The notes under the pieces are model-generated. The model worked only from the letters and a program-made list of their open reading frames with translations, did no database searches and was not told the origin of the DNA. Shown one piece after another: positions 3,478 to 64,000 of a stretch of DNA of 64,000 bases (positions are counted from its first letter, which is position 1; each line of letters begins with the position of its first letter). This DNA comes from Polytrichum commune (Eukaryota > Streptophyta > Polytrichopsida > Polytrichales > Polytrichaceae). The stretch spans positions 57,598,001 to 57,662,000 of the forward strand of contig OX485804.1 in NCBI GenBank assembly GCA_950295325.1, given 5' to 3'. The translations under genes were made by a program, and so were the position numbers.

Positions 3478-3489
3478 CACATCAAGGAA

Positions 3490-3702
3490 CGGGGAGAACC
3501 GGCCGCTAGTTATAGATGAACCGGCTGGGTTTGAGAAATAACCGGTTAAAGTTCAAGACTTCATGAAAACTACCGGTCGTTAGAAAAGAAGCGATGAAAT
3601 GCACCTCACATTAATGAAAGAAAAACCGGAAGATCGCAACATGTAACCGGTTGGACTTGGAAACACTAGGACCTTACCCATTTATGCCTAAAAATCTCCC
3701 CG
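3490..3702 (+). mobile_element. Family D (ACCGGTT-rich) repeat, copy 1
   Basis: 213 bp bounded by CGGGGAGA and TCTCCCCG, with several (A)ACCGGTT motifs inside. Copies lie at 9084-9303, 15291-15500 (inverted), 19969-20155 (inverted), 62539-62708 and 63280-63490 (inverted). No coding capacity; superfamily unknown. Confidence 0.75.
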
Positions 3703-3984
3703 GGCACTATTACACATAACCACCCCCATGGTTGACTTGTGGTCAACATGAGTACTAGGTATATATTTCGGTTACCACACAAGACATAAAGACCTAATTA
3801 GGGTTGAGTAGATCGGATCTCTACATGCACCTCGTTAGTTAGATCCGGGAATTGCATGCGTGAGATATTCGAGGTGGCGGGACTAGGATCTTCTTTCATC
3901 TGCATGAGGGTGTCCCCGGAGAGTGGGGTTGCTTTTTGCACCCGTCACTAACATGTCATATGCCCGTCACAATCACTTGTCCCA

Positions 3985-4262: not shown

Positions 4263-4493
4263 ATTTATGAAGAAGAATAAATGCATTCTCCTTAGAAGAT
4301 GTTTTTTCTTCACAAGAAAAATGAATCCCCGCTATTACTCCTCCTAAACTAATGCGAACTCTCTTATTTTATCAGTTATAAATGCCTCAACCTTTTACGT
4401 GATGCACACTTCACAGTTGCGACGGGCATTTGACGGGTTTGTGATAGGTGCAAAAAACAACATTGGTTCCATGAAAATCCTCAACTGAACTTA

Positions 4494-4957
4494 GAGCCAC
4501 TTCACACATGAGACTGAGGGCTTGTGACCTTTGCACTTCAAGCACTCTCATTGGTCCAAGTTTGCTTCACACTACTACACTCGAGGGACCGACGGAGCGT
4601 GTGAATGCACAATGGATGTAAAGTCTACATGGATTCCTACATGACATCAAACAAATTATGTTTCATGTTCACTTTGACTATTTTCAAAAACCACCTCTTG
4701 GAGGTAGGCCTAACACAAAACCGAGAGACCATGGCACTCCGAAATCACACAACCGTTGATTTATTATACAATATTTTATCATGTGTGAGGACCCTGCATG
4801 AATAGAAATTTATTGAAATAGCATTTGTTGAGGGCTTGATCACATATGACTTCACATTACATGATCTTGGAAGTGTCTTGGGATGGGCCTTTCGACAATT
4901 CTTTTGGGCTCTCACAATTTCATGGTCACGGTTCTTGGCTCGTGTGTGAAGGGGCCC
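4494..4957 (+). mobile_element. Family A Tourist-like MITE, copy 2
   Basis: 464 bp with degraded ends (GAGCCACTTCACACATGAG ... GTGTGTGAAGGGGCCC). The left flank is TTA, the right flank TCG. It lies only 8 bp before copy 3, in the same orientation. Confidence 0.82.
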
Positions 4958-4965
4958 TCGGTTAA

Positions 4966-5465
4966 GGGCCACTTCACACACGAGATTGAGAGCCCGTGAC
5001 CATTGCACTTCAAGCACTCTCACTGGTGGAAAAGGTGGAGCCGGTCCCAAGTTTACTTCACACTACGCTTGAGGGACCAAAGTATGTGAATGCAAGATGG
5101 ATGCAAAGTCTACATGGATTCCTACACGACATCGAATGGATCATGTTACATGGTCACTTGGACTATTTTCCAAAACCACCTCTTGGAGGTAGGCCTAACA
5201 CAAAACCACTAGGAGACCATGGCACTCAGGACGCTCACAACCATTGATTCATTTTATTTTATCATGCATGTGGACTCGCATGATTAGAAATTCATTGAAA
5301 TAGCATTTGGTTGAGGGCACGGTCACATATGACTTCACACTACACTTGAGGGTCCATGACCACACTACACGATTTTGGAGGTGTATTGGGATGGCCTTTG
5401 GACACTTTCTTTTGGGCTCTCACAATTCCATGGTCACGGCTCTTGGCTTGTGTGTGAAGTGGCCC
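4966..5465 (+). mobile_element. Family A Tourist-like MITE, copy 3
   Basis: 500 bp with TIRs GGGCCACTTCACACACGAG ... CTCGTGTGTGAAGTGGCCC and a perfect TAA duplication (4963-4965, 5466-5468). The interior aligns with copy 1 along its whole length. Confidence 0.9.
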
Positions 5466-9052: not shown

Positions 9053-9083
9053 ACTTCTTTAACATTGATCTCCTCAAATGAAC

Positions 9084-16872: not shown

Positions 16873-18250
16873 GGTTGGCAATGCCGCCTCACCCATATAA
16901 GCCTCTAAGACTTTGGACATGGTCCCTACCCCACCTTCAAGTAACATTTTGTCTCTCTCCTAAGAGTTGGGGCGAGGTAGACATTTTCCCTTAGATGTTG
17001 GGCTTGCAATCCCCCAACACCTTCAGACCTTCAGACCTCCATAACTTTGTTATTTGATCTTTAGCTCCGTCAAGAAACCAATCCATTGTCATCTACTCCT
17101 CACGTAGATGCTGACGGACTCCTCACTTGCCCCATTCGGGCAATTATTGCGGAAGTTATGGTTGTTCTAACCTCGGCAGTCTTGCGCGCCACTCCCATGT
17201 CACTGTTGTCCCACCACAACGCCCCCTAGAGTGTTGGGCGTTGTCCCTAGGCATCGCCCCACTCAATTGCCATATCTTCTAGCTCACATCTTCGATTGGG
17301 GAGTTCTTGAGCATTCTAGAATCCAGACGCCATAAGCTACTCAATGCTCATGGCCTTACCCTCGTCACTCCTAGTCTGCATGGGTGGGAGGTGTTCTTAA
17401 TGCATGGGGCCCTCACCCACACTAGGATCACTTGGGCCCTCTCACCTATGACGCCACAAGTCCTGGGTGTCACTCCGGGGTCCCCCTTGTCTCCATGGTG
17501 TTGGGGGCACTCCTCATGGAGAGGTGCGCAACAATTGGACATGTAAGGGACAATGAGAAGTACGAGTGACCTCACACCCCAACATGATTATATGTGTATG
17601 CTTTTTTTTTTGGACTTTATCCATCTTTCTTAAGTTTATAATTACGTTATTTTAATTTGTGATGACCTCCTTGCTATTGGTGTCCTTTACATCGTGTTAG
17701 GTTTCATGTAGCTTGAACTTGCTTCCCCTCCCCCTTCATTGTTTCCAAGAGCACTAGGAGGAATTGGTGATGTCTCCCAAGGCATTGTTTTACCAAGTTG
17801 GGTATGTGGCTCTCTCAATGACCACACAAATGCTAGTGACGCAATGGACTCTAAAAGAGTTTGTTTCTAGTACTAGAAACAAAAAGTGGTTTATTACAAT
17901 TCATTTATTCAAGTGATTCAATATTCTAATCGTTTTAGTTTCAAACTAGAGTGAAGTGTTTGAGATCTACTAATAATGTTGAAGTTTAGAAAATCACCTT
18001 TCAAAAAATACAACAATTTTTGAATTTACATAAGATTAGGTAGCCGAGGAAAAACTAGAGATAGTACCCCCTAATCATTTACCTCATGTTTGGATGTGGT
18101 GTTTTACAAAATACAATGAGTGACTCCCCACGTCCCATGTCACTGATGTGTTGTGAATGGAGGGTGTGTGGTTGCGACCAGACCACATCCAAGCTATCCA
18201 TTCATAGAGCCCCATCCTACGGTCTATGGAATTGCTTGAGCAACTCAAAA
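16873..18250 (+). mobile_element. 1.38-kb dispersed element R, copy 1
   Basis: An inverted copy lies at 23630-24975, collinear along the full length with only short indels. Internal markers include TATATAAGCCTCTAAGA-like sequence at the left, GACCTCCTTGCTATTGGTGT in the middle and GAGCAACTCAAAAAAAAA at the right. Opposite orientation rules out an LTR pair. They may be solo LTRs or non-autonomous copies of one family; no protein domain was found. Confidence 0.75.
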
Positions 18251-23629: not shown

Positions 23630-24975
23630 TTTTTGAGTTGCTCAAGCAGTTTCATAGACCGTAGGATGGGGCTCTATAAATGGATGGCTTGGATGTGGTT
23701 TGCTCACAACCACACACCCTCCATTCACAACGCCTTAGTGACATGGGAGTCACTCATTATATTTCATAAAACACCACGTGCAAAAATGAGGTAAATGATT
23801 AGGGGGTACTATCTCTAGTTTTTTCTCGCTACCTAATCTTATGTAAATTCAAAAATTGTTGTATTTTTTGAAAGGTGATCTTCTAAACTTCAACATTATT
23901 AGTAGATCTCAAACACTTCACTCTAGTTTGAAACTAAAACAATTAGAATTTTGAATCACTTGAATAAATGAATTGTAATAAACCACTTTTTGTTTCTAGT
24001 ACTAGAAACAAACTCTTTTAGAGTCCATTGCATCAATAGCTTTTGTGTGGTCATTGAGAGAGCCGCATACCCAACTTGGTAAAACATTGCCTTGGGAGAC
24101 ATCACCAATTCCTCCTAGTGCTCTTGGAAACAATGAAGGGGGAGGGGAAGCAAGTTGAAGCTACATGAAACCTAACACGATTTAAAGGACACCAATAGCG
24201 AAAGAGGTCATCACAAATTAAAGCAACGTAATTATAAACTTAAGAAAGATGGATAAAGTCCCAAAAAAAAGCATACACACATAATCATGTTGGGGTGTGA
24301 GGTCACTTGTACTTCTCATTGTCCCTTACATGTCCAATTCTTGCAGACCTCTCCATGAGGAGTGCCCCCAACACCATGGACACAAGGGGGACCCCGGAAT
24401 GACACCTGGGACTTGTGGCGTCATAGGTGAGAGGGCCCAAGTGATTCAAGTGTGGGTGAGGGCCCCAGGCATTAAGAACACCTCCCACCCATGCAGACTA
24501 GGAGTGACGAGGGTAAGCCATGAGCATTGAGTAGCTTATGGCGTCCGGATTCTAGAATGCTCAATGCCCAATCGAAGGTGTGAGCTAGAAGATATGGCAA
24601 TTGAGTGGGGCGTTGCCTAGGGACAACACCCAACACTCTAGGGTTCGCTGTGGTGGGATAGCTGTGACCTGGGAGTGGCGCGCAAGACTGCCGAGGTTAG
24701 AACAACCATAACTTCCATAATATTTACCCGAATGAGGCAAGTGAGGAGTCCATCGGCATCTATGTGAGGTGTAGATGACAATGAATTGGTTTCTTGACAG
24801 ATCTGAAGATCAAATAACAAAGTTATGAAGGTCTAAAGGTGTTGGGGGATTGCAGGCCCAACAGGTAAGGGAAAATGTCTACCTCGCCCCAACTTTTAGG
24901 AGCGAAACAAAATGTTACTTGAAGGTGGGGTAGGGACCCTGTCCAGAGTTCTAGAGGCTTATATGAGTGCGGTTG
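23630..24975 (-). mobile_element. 1.35-kb dispersed element R, copy 2 (inverted)
   Basis: Reverse-complement partner of 16873-18250, beginning TTTTTTTTGAGTTGCTCAAG. It carries the same CATGTTGGGGTGTGAGG and TTCTAGAATGCTCA blocks. The open frames at 24297-24530 and 24303-24488 are the mirror of those in copy 1 and have no domain. Confidence 0.75.
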
Positions 24976-44139: not shown

Positions 44140-46500
44140 ATCATCTTGAAAACAACTTGCCTCCTCTAGCTCAATTTCATGTGCATCCAAGAGGTCAGCC
44201 TCGTCAACAAAATATTCTTTCACAACATCCCCTTTGAATGTAGAACCATCACATGCATCACATGGTCAATTCTTTTGTATCATGACTAGTGCATTCAAGT
44301 TCACTAAGCCAAATTTGCATCACCATAAATTACAAAGGATTGCATGAATGGAAAAAATACGCTTTGTTTCTATTTAAGAGCCTAGAATTGCAAGAAGTTG
44401 CCTAGCTAGGAAACCCACATTCGGAAACCTATGTGCATTTTCTTTCCACCATTTTAAAGGTGCTACCTCCTTCTTTCTAGGAAACGCCAACCTTTCATAC
44501 AAAGACAGCTTTGACACAAGCAAGCCCAATATACCAACCTCTTCAGTCGTGGCATGAGCATCAAACAAAAAGTCCACTACTTCATTGAACCCAATTTTTG
44601 CATCATCGGAAACTTCCATGGATCGCATATTCAAATGTCGGTTTACCTTCACGAAAGGAGGCAAAATAACATGGTCATCATATTCTTCCACAAATTCCCA
44701 TGCTTGCACCACACCTACAAGCTCAGTTACACATTTAAGTCATTTGAATCAAAGGTCCAACATAAAGGCAAGCACGTTAAGGGTTTTTGCCACTTTGAAG
44801 GCACAAAGATATGATATGAATGGATAGAGTACACGTGTCACCTCACCTGCCATGCAACCATAAAGAACCTCTAGCTCCACATCAAAATGGTCAACCTCCA
44901 TCCACGTACCTTGCCTACAATTGACCTCATGTAAATTGTAAGTGCAATGAAAAGTGCATTGCTGAGCATCCAATACCCCCTAGTTTGGTTGAGGATAAGT
45001 TCCTTGACAACATGCTTCAACATCTCTGGCACGGCACGCGCAACCACCAATGTAACTCCAAAGGGCACCTAAGCTTGCAAAGCAACAAATTCATTGTTGT
45101 CGCTTACTCTAAAGTTTCATGCACATGCACTCAACCCACATGAAGGTCAAGCCTAATAAGAAAGGCACCGTTCTTCACAACATAAAGCATCGTTGATGGG
45201 ATTATGGGGCTTGAAAATCCACCAATTTATGAGTCATCCAACATTGTTGATCATGTGGATGCTATGTGATCATGATTCATAATGAGCTCACAAATTCATA
45301 AAAATTAGAAAGACTTATAATTAGAATATAATCACCTTCGACACGACCCCTGTTTTCACTAGTGTTTTCCATTTCTTTGAAGGGAGAATGGAAACAATAC
45401 ACGCCCTAAACTAGGATTTAAGTATATTTGGATTTAAGCATGCATTTTGGACAACTGCAACTGCCAATATGACAAACACTAGATCACAAAGCTACACAAA
45501 TCTAGTGGTCCGGAAACATGTAATACAAACATTTGAAGTTGTGTTTGTTATGTTGTTGTTTTAGTAGTTGTCATTTGATGTTTTTTGCCCCCACAAGTGC
45601 ACATCCCTTTTAATTTTGGGATAAGTGGTTTGTCCAAATACACTTAAATGTCAACTCATATCCATTCTTGTCTCCCCTTCCAGCTATTCTTTGTCCAAAT
45701 TATACTTTTTTGCAATGTTACTTGAGCTTTCAATATGTTCACCTCTGACATGCCTCTGCAAACCTTCTCATCCATTATGGCATATTGGCATGCCTTGCTC
45801 ATGGCGTACCCAAAGCCAATGCCAACATATGGCACTATCCCAAGTGGTCTACAAGTCACCGCAAAGCTCAAAGTCACTGCCAATGTTGCCAAGTTGACAC
45901 CCTAATCCTTCACGTAAGCAACCACGTTGTTGGTCAACTACATTATTTGGAGCAGTTGCTTAACAATCTCCACAAATGTAGCTCATGATGTGTCCAACGC
46001 TTTGAACAATCCCATCGTCACATGTTGCACATGCCACTCATCGTCCACAAAGATCATCACCATTGTGAAAGTGTCGAACCATGTGCGGTTTGTCCACAAG
46101 TGAGAAGTAATAGAAATAGTTGCACACACACCAAGGGTAGGTAACATAACGCATTGCATAGTTCTAGCTAACATCCCATGGTATCAGCTCTTGGCTCATT
46201 TGTTTGCCAGAAGGAAAACAAACTTTGGGATCATTCTGCTTGAAAAATCTCCTTAACCAATTGCTTTCCACAATTGAGAGCACCATATAACCCTTTGCAA
46301 CAAACAAAACAAGCTCTTCCAAGAACTTCAACTCTAGTGTATTTGTTTTTCAATACGAAGTCTCATAGCCAAAGAACTATGTGATGGAGCTTGGTGCAAC
46401 ATTCTTCCATTTCTTGAACCTTTGCCTTTTGTTGTCCTCCCCCATCTCTTGCAAGGCAGCCTTGTAGCACTCCAAATCCACTTCGTACCCATTATGCGAG
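44140..46500 (-). pseudogene. Decayed hAT-type (DUF659) transposase
   Basis: Read on the minus strand, the remnants follow the order of plant hAT transposases. An ECYKAALQEMGED / NKRQRFKKWK segment lies near 46490-46400. A variable part with PKVCFPSGKQ is near 46220, and SHLWTNRTWFDTF ... HVTMGLFKALDTS at 46150-45985. Next come VAYVKD and AMSKACQYA ... VCRG at 45930-45735 and GRQEW near 45665. Then FKVAKTLNVLAFMLD at 44800-44750, EEYDDHVILPPF near 44680, and the C-terminal dimerisation segment WWKENAHRFPN ... LARQLLAILGS at 44450-44374. Frames shift and many stops interrupt it, for example at the usual MLDPRFK motif and straight after LAILGS. NLNALVM and an acidic tail (to about 44140) follow. 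No TIRs were identified. Confidence 0.8.
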
Positions 46501-55638: not shown

Positions 55639-55662
55639 TAATACACCTCTACCTTATATCTC

Positions 55663-55858
55663 TACTATACATGAAGGAGTGGTGATTCTAATCTACGACC
55701 AAATGACCTAACTCCCACTTGATAACGTTACTCAACATGCAACTCTTGTTACGTGTGCCCTACTATACATGAAGGAGTGGTGATTTTAATCTACGACCAA
55801 AAGACCTGACTCCCACTTGATAACGTTACTCAACATGCAACTCTTGTTACGTGTGCCC
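55663..55858 (+). repeat. Tandem duplication, 98 bp x 2
   Basis: Units 55663-55760 and 55761-55858 both start TACTATACATGAAGGAGTGG and differ at only about three positions, which points to a recent duplication. Confidence 0.92.
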
Positions 55859-57094
55859 TCATAATATAATAGTAAGATGCTTGAAAAGTTACGCAGGGAG
55901 ACTCGTATTCAAATTGAACTCCCAACATCCGATTGTTATATTACGAAAGCCCATGTCCCTAAATAATGTTATGTTGACTAGAACTGAGTAACTCTAGCTC
56001 TAAGTTTGGGAACATATTAAACTCCCAACGTAGGAGAATCACATGCCCTATTTTCTTGCCCATGAGTGTTGCTTTGCCCATCCGCTTGATTCCTTATTAA
56101 CAAGACCAAAATGGATGGGGCTGGCTCTTGGCATGTAAATTAATGTAACTTCGTTAAGTAATATCGTGGAAGCACACATGCAAATGATGTATTATGTGAT
56201 CACCATGCAGGTAACTTTGCGGATTGAAATTTAGGGGAAGATAAATTATCACATACGCGGACTTTTTATATGTGGATAGAGGGAATTGTCATATATGAGC
56301 GTAATTCTCAGTCATCCAACATAAATATCTTAAAATAGTATGCAACCCAAAGATTGTTTTTCGAGAAGAAGTCTATGGGAGGCGAACCAGGGTTCTGGCC
56401 TCTCGTGAGGCCACGTCGCCAATTCGAAACCTTGAAAATGCCGTAAATCTACGAATCCTATAATCTTTTGTAGTTCATTTGACACATCAAAATTGGTTCT
56501 AAACACCTCCCAAATAATAATAACATTCCACTATAGGTTTATTGTTAATTCATCTTGATTTGGGTTCACTTGACTCATACGAGGTCTTTGACCATGATTT
56601 AGGGATACTTTTTTTTTTAAAAAAAAAAATCCATGGGTTCTAGAATAGTGTTCTGCATTCTTGGGGGATAGATTGTGAGTGTTGTGGATTGTGTAGATAT
56701 TCATGACACCTATCGAGGAGGAGAGTGACAATGTTGATTACTATACGAAGTCCATATATTATTATGTGTAGATAGAATAACCCATAATCAAGCTCCAAGA
56801 TCCCAACTTAGTTTTGATTAGAGTTTCAAAGCATCATTGACTATCATTAATGTAAAGTGAAAAAGCCATTGTTTAGTTTTTCCAATTCTAATAAAAAAAC
56901 TCAAATGATATAGTCACCGAGCCGGTCTCCAACGAGAGCCATCACTTAGTGTCACCAATACTATTTCTCTCGCTGAGTACTAATTGTAAACCACCTGCGT
57001 AGTATCACCAAAACTAAACATAGACCTAACATTATTTGTCATTCCTTGTAACAAAACATTGGGATATTACATATTTACAATGTGTCACCAATCC
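55859..57094. other. Intergenic stretch with MITE fragments
   Basis: The part at 56284-56326 is a family M end (GAGCGTAATTCTCAGTCATC). A T10-A11 palindrome lies at 56609-56629. 56925-57060 is a truncated family H piece matching 36550-36655. No gene. Confidence 0.55.
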
Positions 57095-57354
57095 TATGCC
57101 ATGGTCTCCCGATTTTGTATCAAGCCTACCTCCAAGAGGTGGTTTTTGAAAATAATCCAAGTGACCATGAAACATGATCCATTTGATACCATGTAAGAAT
57201 CCATGCAAGCTTTTCATCCATTTTGCATCCACGTACTCCGGTGGTCCCTCAAGCGTAGTGTGAAGCGAACTTGGACCGGCTCTGCCTTTTCCACCAATAA
57301 GAGTGCTTGAAGTGCAATGGTCACGGGCCCTCAGTCTCGTGTGTGAAGTGGCCC
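57095..57354 (-). mobile_element. Family A MITE, copy 4 (inverted, truncated)
   Basis: Contains the 5' half of family A in reverse complement, ending CTCGTGTGTGAAGTGGCCC followed by TAA. The other half and its TIR are absent. Confidence 0.82.
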
Positions 57355-61878: not shown

Positions 61879-62024
61879 ATAATTATAGTTAACATCCACA
61901 TTAAATAAAGTGGACCAAAAATAACAAGAGCAAGTAACGTCCAAGTGTGAACGCAAATTGGTTAGGAAATTTGCGCTTGAAACGAAGAAGTTGATGCATA
62001 GCCTCTGTCCGACAGACAAAGCCC

Positions 62025-62475
62025 TTTAAGCACTCTCACTGGTGGAAAAGGCGGAGCCGGTCCAAGTTCGCTTCCCACGACGCTTGAGGGACCAACGGAG
62101 CAAGTGAACGCAAGATGGATGTAAAAGTCCACATGGATTCCTACATGGCATTGAATGGATTGTGTTTCATTCGTCACTTGGACTATTTTCAAAAACCACT
62201 TCATGGAGGTAGGCCTACCACAAAACCACTGGGAGATCATGGCACTCCGAACGATCACAACCGTTGGTTTATTTTATTTTATCATGCATGAGGGCCCCGC
62301 ATTAATAGAAACTCACTGAGATAGCATTTGGTTGAGGGCCTGGTCACATATGACTCCACACTACACTTGAGGATTCGTGACCACACTACATGATCTTGGA
62401 GGTGTCTTGGGACACTTTCTTTTGGGCTCTCACAACTTCACGGTCACGGCTCTTGGCTCGTGTGTGAAGTGGCCC
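62025..62475 (+). mobile_element. Family A MITE, copy 5 (5' truncated)
   Basis: Begins inside the family at AAGCACTCTCACTGGTGG and continues to the intact right end CTCGTGTGTGAAGTGGCCC. The left TIR is missing. Confidence 0.82.
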
Positions 62476-62538
62476 CTTACTATTCCACGTGACATGCATA
62501 AGTTAGAGGCCCCAACCCCAATGTCATTGCAATGAACC

Positions 62539-62708
62539 GGGAGAACCAACCACTAGTTGCGGATGAACCAGTTGAGCTTGAGAAATAAGCGGTTGAAGTT
62601 CCAATGCTTCAGGAATATTGCCGATCATTTCAGAGGAATCTAGGGAACATACCCCAGATTCATAGAGATAGAAACCGAAAGATGTCAACATGTAACCGGT
62701 TGGACTTG
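62539..62708 (+). mobile_element. Family D repeat, copy 5 (3' part missing)
   Basis: Runs from GGGAGAACCAACCACTAG to AACCGGTTGGACTTGG, where a G14 tract (62708-62721) and a GAAGAAGAA stretch begin. It faces copy 6. Confidence 0.75.
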
Positions 62709-62767
62709 GGGGGGGGGGGGGAGGAGAAGAAGAAGAAGAAGAAAGGATCTCGACCGATTACGTATTA

Positions 62768-62845
62768 GGTAATCGTTTTATTGGAACCGGTTAACGGTGC
62801 ACAACCGGTTCTGCACCGATAACCGGTTCCAATAAAACGATTACC
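62768..62845. repeat. Near-perfect 34-bp stem palindrome
   Basis: Arms 62768-62801 and 62812-62845 pair with a single mismatch around a 10-base loop that itself contains AACCGGTT. The left arm starts GGTAATCGTTTTATTGG. Confidence 0.92.
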
Positions 62846-62846
62846 G

Positions 62847-63032
62847 GACGTAACCGGTTGGCCGCTTTGTTGAGCTGCGCAGGTGACCTAAACAGTGGGT
62901 CACCTATCACCATAACCGATTTAGATGATCATAACCGGCTGGGATGTCGAGATTATCGTCTGCAAACCTGTGTGCTCAGGGCCAATCGTGTAGTGCCACC
63001 TTGGCGAAACAAAGCGGCCAACCGGTTACGTC
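62847..63032. mobile_element. 186-bp unit with perfect 25-bp inverted ends
   Basis: Left end 62847-62871 (GACGTAACCGGTTGGCCGCT...) and right end 63008-63032 are exact reverse complements. An inner 8-bp stem AGGTGACC/GGTCACCT lies near 62880-62905. No clear target duplication was seen. Confidence 0.82.
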
Positions 63033-63279
63033 AAAAAAATCTCCTCCTCCCCGGACATTGCGGTGTCGTTGGCCTAACTTTTTTTTTTTCTCCCACGTTT
63101 CTTTAACCTCCACCCCCACAGCAGTTCCATATTACTTGGGAACAGAAGGTGGCTGTAGACAGCATGCAGTAGCTTTGTGATTCATATTCATACTGATTCC
63201 TGGCATGCTAAGAAAGTCCACGATAATAATGCAAAACTTCCGAACAGAATGAATCGGGTAACTTATATTCAGCGTCTGG

Positions 63280-63490
63280 GAAGGTTTTTGGGCAGAATCG
63301 GTTGTGAGATCCTAGTGTTTCCAAGCCACGTATTGACATCTGCCGGGTTTTTTTTTTTAAAATAAAAAATAAAAAATAAAATCGAGGTGTATTCTCTGGA
63401 CTCCTCAAGACCGATCGATCGTTTTTTGCTGAAGTCTTGAAAACCAACCAGTTGTTCCTCACACTCAGCAGCTGGTTCACCTGTAAATCA
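63280..63490 (-). mobile_element. Family D repeat, copy 6 (inverted)
   Basis: Reverse complement of the family from GGGAAGGTTTTTGGGCAG to TCAGCAGCTGGTTCACC, with an A/T-rich insertion near 63350-63380. Confidence 0.72.
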
Positions 63491-64000
63491 CTATATTCAG
63501 TAATCGGAGACTTTTCCATGGTATTGAGACCATTTAAGGACGTGGTTTTTCAAAGAACAAACAAGAGAAACACAAAAATATTTTCAATGTGACGTAATAA
63601 AGTGATTTGCATGGGCGATACAAATACATGTCATTATAATACGAAATTGTACTAAATATTGAACCATTTGCATTTATTTTGAAACTTTTCACAGCTATGT
63701 GTGCACAGTGGCCGGTTCTCGCCGTTCATGTGCTTATGAGAGAGAGGTCGAGCTTCGAGGAGTCCGTGTTTTGTTGCAGAATCGGCATGACTTTACAATT
63801 ACAAAAGCCATGAATGCGGAACAGTGCACTGCATGTTGCTTTTTCCTCTGCTTTGTATTTTTAGGTTACAGTAGTTGCAGGCCAAGGATAGTTCGTGGTG
63901 TCCATGAAACGTTGGCCAATAATAAGGGAATGTGGAAATGGAGTGAATGATTCTATGACCTTTGAACAACTGTATTGGATGGTTTGACTCCGGAAATGGG
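63491..64000. other. Window end, nothing recognised
   Basis: A plus-strand frame of 83 codons (63699-63950) has no recognisable family. It could be an exon of a gene beyond the window, but nothing here supports that. Confidence 0.4.

Follow-up and report, generated by a model that had tools for sequence, protein, structure and literature searches.

The segment at 62530-63060 of the window (the whole 64-kb stretch of DNA analyzed here) is most likely one non-coding hAT-like MITE of 531 bases, longer than the roughly 227 bases usual for its family, which we call family D. We give a probability of roughly 0.55 to the complete reading, in which the complex consists of this non-autonomous hAT-like element (D1), with an inner block derived from template switching, and a truncated copy of the same family (D2) placed downstream in the opposite direction. 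The inverted repeats of this kilobase are real and far beyond chance, as the longest perfect one within 62500-63490 measures 26 bp, whereas 500 first-order Markov sequences gave 10.4 on average and 18 at most. The kind of element is ordinary and known, and its inner architecture is unusual. The second transposon copy downstream completes the resolution of the inverted repeats; no undescribed class is needed, and the puzzling nest can be explained by a single MITE copy and a rearrangement inside it. No description of family D or of its long form was found in the literature searched, and papers pairing the motif AACCGGTT with transposons, judged by titles and the beginnings of abstracts, contained no such element.

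Family D, a probable hAT-like MITE family

Family D is a non-autonomous element of ~227 bp with 14-bp inverted ends. Self-comparison of the window placed copies at about 3483, 9075-9077, 15333, 20000, and 62530, together with an inverted copy at ~63278-63490, making six copies in 64 kb when D1 and D2 are counted. The ends of the copies are CAATGAACGGGGAG on the left and TAGTGCCCGGGGAG or TAGTGTCCGGGGAG on the right, read inwards, and the consensus has CAATGAACGGGGAG and TAGTGCCCGGGGAG. The end pattern YARTGNNCGGGGAG, composed after inspection of the copies, has 22 matches with up to two mismatches (6.6 expected), of which 8 are D ends. It matches both ends of the 3483 copy, the 9075 copy, and D1. 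In the 15 kb and 20 kb copies it matches a single end, the left one being decayed and missed at this threshold. The four sister copies align with D1 across the entire short form, and pairwise identity of the aligned columns among family copies, with the left part of D1 included, ranges from 73 to 81%, i.e., a difference of 19 to 27%.

The copy at 3483-3709 carries a perfect 8-bp duplication, TTACACAT, abutting both ends, so that family D is best filed as a hAT-like MITE; for the family as a whole, the 8-bp duplication is established through this one copy. The flanking 8-mers of the other three solo copies match at 5/8, 5/8, and 4/8 positions, their first base having been set by eye in the alignment with a freedom of 1 to 2 bases. 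Over five elements at offset 0 (D1, with 3/8, included), the summed match is 25/40, a value reached by none of 20,000 random draws, and control pairs of left and right flanks from different copies average 2.2/8. The inverted ends of hAT elements begin with YARNG, as do those of family D, which is non-coding and multicopy. Its ends are also short, as are those of hAT elements (5 to 27 bp, according to PMC3517528). Against the hAT assignment, PMC2820524, the one paper found that uses the term YARNG, ascribes such ends to P elements. The proposal of the earlier note that the complex might be an undescribed element class is not supported, as the inverted ends, the 8-bp duplication at one sister, and the common motif point to a hAT-like MITE family.

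That motif is the self-complementary octamer AACCGGTT, and the description of the complex as motif-rich was borne out by its enrichment. It occurs 11 times in 64 kb, compared with a mean of 0.56 and a largest count of 3 in 100 shuffles, and all 11 exact occurrences in this window lie within D copies or D1. When one mismatch is allowed, 20 of 27 octamers fall within the 1,856 bases attributed to family D (with D1, D2, and the intervening stretch included), although the count in D1 is inflated because the arms are counted twice. We infer that AACCGGTT is a putative transposase-binding internal repeat, which would be bound by the hAT transposase of the family as AAACGG is for maize Ac. If so, the family would offer a natural series with 1 to 10 near-matching sites.

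A candidate partner is found in the open frame 44374-44739 (minus strand), which contains a hAT dimerization domain (PF05699; E value, 1e-6). As the neighboring open frames are short, it looks like the relic of a decayed hAT transposase, and its presence in the window counts in favor of the hAT assignment. Upstream of PF05699, short open frames that appear transposase-like by eye extend in fragments to about 46550. No match to YARTGNNCGGGGAG with up to two mismatches lies between 26126 and 49941. A coding relic within D1 or D2 was also considered and rejected, the two overlapping open reading frames (ORFs) tested, 62795-63106 (plus) and 63208-63549 (minus), having no Pfam match at E values up to 0.1.

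Outside the window, three scans of viral contigs gave no exact match to the 25-bp end of the inner unit described below, to a 25-base piece of the palindrome arm, or to a 29-base piece of family D. Of the 25-bp end, a core of 21 bases has one exact match, in a Methylotenera metagenome-assembled genome (MAG), which does not extend by a single base on either side and which we treat as chance, since we estimate that ~0.1 such matches are expected in that collection. The viral-contig and MAG collections hold no plant or animal genomes, and their silence is uninformative about the host.

Several other features were observed in the window. A long inverted duplication (17267-17900 and 23972-24600) has ~95% identity, with its parts ~6 kb apart, and may extend further. 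Two-copy tandem duplications with 97% matches are located at 181-673 (period of 252 bp) and 55662-55859 (98 bp). One ORF contains a DUF1264 domain, which, taken with the MITE load and the hAT relic, suggests a eukaryotic host, probably a plant. A 237-amino-acid ORF had no Pfam or PDB match, and a search for a thioredoxin-type motif found none.

Structure of the long copy D1 and of D2

The features of the complex are as follows.

62522-62529, plus strand: candidate left target-site duplication TGTCATTG, 7/8 identical to 63064-63071
62530-63060, plus strand: D1, the 531-bp long form of family D, hAT-like and non-autonomous, from its similarity to D and both inverted ends
62530-62543, plus strand: left terminal inverted repeat CAATGAACCGGGAG, 1 mismatch to YARTGNNCGGGGAG
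62708-62743, plus strand: G14 tract (62708-62721) and AGAAGA microsatellite, replacing a short stretch of D, read from the sequence
62751-62763, plus strand: first D-derived site CGACCGATTACGT, 3' of AGGATCTC (AGGATCT before the site), as in the D consensus
62764-63018, plus strand: extra inner block, which neither D2 nor any of the four solo D copies has, from comparison with the window and D
62768-62845, no strand: palindrome with 39-nt arms (62768-62806 and 62807-62845), 37/39 complementary
62847-63032, no strand: 186-bp inverted-repeat unit with arms 62847-62871 and 63008-63032, 25/25
62848-62860, minus strand: second D-derived site, in the left arm of the 186-bp unit, at the junction of the two inverted repeats
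63019-63031, plus strand: third D-derived site CAACCGGTTACGT, a short way 5' of AAAAATCTCC (the arrangement seen in D), agreeing with the first at 11 of 13 positions
63047-63060, minus strand: right terminal inverted repeat, reading CAATGTCCGGGGAG in this orientation, 0 mismatches to YARTGNNCGGGGAG
63064-63071, plus strand: candidate right target-site duplication TGTCGTTG, 3 bases past the mapped right end
63270-63491, minus strand: D2, second family D copy, inverted, without the CAATG end and with an A/T-rich insertion, from its score against the D consensus

The left part of D1 (62530-62710) is identical to a D consensus built without D1 at 152 of 179 positions. The D sequence breaks off at GACTTGG, where the G14 tract that had been reported is indeed present, and after this tract and the AGAAGA run it returns at 62744 (AGGATCTC, AGGATCTCGACCGATTA). 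On the 3' side of the hairpins, we found the D 3' end (AAAAATCTCC...CCCCGGACATTG) at 63035-63060, with its inverted repeat intact. As the D sequence returns after the hairpins and ends at 63060, the hairpins lie inside D1 and the element measures 531 bp, with ~255 to 270 extra bases. It is the single long-form copy known, from this window. The flanks of D1, which match at 3/8 positions at offset 0, reach 7/8 with a 3-base offset (TGTCATTG/TGTCGTTG), a level attained by 64 of 20,000 random placements with shifts of 0 to 4, and this is no more than suggestive of a target duplication of its own. The poor match at offset 0, like the 5/8, 5/8, and 4/8 of the three sister copies, counts against the hAT-like reading.

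The two family D copies facing each other that the earlier note had described were recovered, one from 62530 onward (plus) and the other at 63270-63491 (minus), but the first does not end before the hairpins, since it resumes past them and terminates at 63060. D2 (63278-63490) scores 107 against the D consensus, which has five rows, one of them D2 itself (D1 being left out for the D1 comparison); the maximum in 200 shuffles was 30. The A/T-rich insertion of D2 lies at about 63350-63383. The sequence CTGAATATA is present at both D2 borders (63264-63272 and 63492-63500) despite the missing CAATG end, and a duplication beside a lost end is odd. Just upstream of D1, at 62021-62480, there is a copy, with its left end lost, of another MITE-like family, whose elements are ~500 bp long and have inverted ends (GGGCCACTTCACACACGAG...). 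Further copies of this family were seen at 1959-2465, 4966-5465, 4485-4966, and 57097-57354.

The 34-bp stem with one mismatch that had drawn attention to this locus was confirmed (33/34, with a loop of 10) as one register of the palindrome with 39-nt arms, and so was the 186-bp unit with perfect 25-bp inverted ends. When the 64 kb were searched for 34-bp arms, allowing up to 3 mismatches and loops no longer than 20, all hits (9 registers) fell at this palindrome. Inverted repeats of at least 24 nt within 1 kb amount to 31 pairs in the window (25 of the 31 listed), so such pairs are common and not special as such; the loopless palindrome with 95% alike arms is. Folded as RNA, 62744-63032 gives -148 kcal/mol on the plus strand and -150 kcal/mol on the minus strand (z scores, -13.5 and -13.9). 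Known structured RNA was tried as a candidate and discarded, as no Rfam gathering score was reached anywhere in the window.

The D site CRACCRRTTAYG is found three times at the borders of the hairpins in alternating orientation (+, -, +). In the family consensus there is a single site, CAACCAATTATG, between AGGATCT and CCCAAAAATCTCC, and in D1 the third site, at 63019, precedes AAAAAAATCTCC. The second and third copies match the consensus at 10 of 14 letters, a level reached by 38 of the 63,987 places on the plus strand; the D site is weakly conserved, and its recognition therefore rests on its position beside D sequence. The best score of 62764-63010 against D is 24, reached by 3 of 200 shuffles, and that of the inside of the 186-bp unit was reached by 71 of 200. 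As the extra block matches D only weakly, most of it can be considered filler. Against the rest of the window, 62764-63032 had no match other than its own arms.

Origin of the inner block

We prefer the reading that the extra block is an inverted duplication produced by template switching within D1, inferred from the arrangement of the sites. Family D would owe its mobility to a hAT transposase supplied from elsewhere, and a broken or stalled D1 copy would have been repaired with two template switches. These would have copied the D site in one direction and then the other, leaving inside the element filler DNA and a pair of inverted repeats next to each other. Two such switches during repair would be expected to produce sites that alternate around a pair of neighboring inverted repeats. 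In addition, the arms match at 37/39 and 25/25 positions, a much closer agreement than the 73 to 81% of the family copies, which favors a later inner event, even if the family may in part have diverged before its copies inserted, since the 3483 copy, for all its perfect duplication, differs from the other copies to a similar degree as they do among themselves. Against this reading stand the weak match of the block to D and the single known copy of the long form. Palindrome-driven rearrangement is a possible origin of the block, with its D site three times in alternation; nothing points to a hotspot, there being one locus only. That the parts belong to one transposon, which would refute the reading of the earlier note, was shown for the outer parts by the sister copies in the window; the inner hairpins have no second copy in it.

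The block could also be made up of small inverted-repeat transposons, one or two of them, that inserted independently into an ordinary short D, with CGACCGATTACGT and CAACCGGTTACGT as their target duplication. The 11/13 direct repeat at both block borders would fit such an insertion, and the 186-bp unit, with its perfect 25-bp ends, is of MITE size. We nevertheless regard nesting as rather unlikely, because the ends of the 186-bp unit have no flanking duplication (ATTACCG versus AAAAAAA), no inverted pair is found just inside the direct repeat (by eye, and none in the inverted-repeat search), the arms themselves hold the D-like site, and the window has no second copy. Two specific versions of an insertion were rejected. 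A free-standing MITE with 25-bp ends was discarded for want of a duplication at the borders of the unit. In Mutator-like elements, a duplication of 9 to 11 bp directly flanks long inverted ends; a Mutator-like insertion was discarded because, although an 11/13 direct repeat exists, the sequence immediately within it does not begin an inverted pair.

It seems unlikely to us that D1 instead preserves the ancestral form of the element, longer and non-autonomous, with transposase-binding repeats in its interior, and that the short D arose from it by deletion between direct site copies. Such a deletion would leave exactly one site, as in the short forms (CAACCAATTATG), D1 having two direct ones, and the block is dense in the motif (7 octamers with at most one mismatch in 270 bp, the arm copies being counted twice). 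The near identity of the arms (37/39 and 25/25), set against the 19 to 27% difference within the family, speaks against this history, as does the absence of the block from all four solo copies and D2. An assembly or sequencing artifact is very improbable: although the G14 tract, T runs, and palindromes lie close together and are error-prone for assemblers, the palindrome arms are not identical (37/39), and past the block the D sequence resumes, with its terminal inverted repeat intact.

The three alternating copies of one site make D1 a clean test case for the gain of filler DNA by hAT elements. It is doubtful, though conceivable, that the inverted duplication, by multiplying the self-complementary AACCGGTT, created a palindromic array of BED-domain sites together with DNA hairpins, which might alter handling by transposase or small RNAs.

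Comparison with known hAT systems

One close parallel is maize Ac/Ds, as described in PMC3260210. There, the transposase binds the AAACGG repeat of the terminal 200 bp, and at least 3 AAACGG copies, besides filler DNA, are present in 438 of 486 Ds-l4 elements. Like D and D1, Ds elements (Ds1 and Ds-l4) are non-autonomous, with short inverted ends and an 8-bp target duplication, and contain short internal repeat copies and filler between conserved ends; their sizes, from <500 bp (Ds1) to about 1 kb (Ds-l4), can also be likened to those of D and D1. The differences are that D and D1 have another end sequence, carry AACCGGTT rather than AAACGG, and are known here without an autonomous partner, and that the filler of D1 consists of two adjacent near-perfect inverted repeats.

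Hermes has a pair of subterminal repeats arranged as a quasi-palindrome, to which two BED domains bind, and the element targets nTnnnnAn (PMC10368747). It resembles family D, with its putative subterminal repeats, in having several such repeats and in a target pattern that is fitted by TTACACAT, though not by the TGTCATTG of D1, and differs in being an animal element with the motif AAGT. Mar, a Drosophila hAT MITE, is also short and non-coding, with 8-bp duplications and short imperfect ends, but its ends are CAG(G/A)GGTAGGC, its target is nnnTAnnn (Buster type), and no inner hairpins like those of D1 are mentioned in the accessible portion of its description (PMC3517528).
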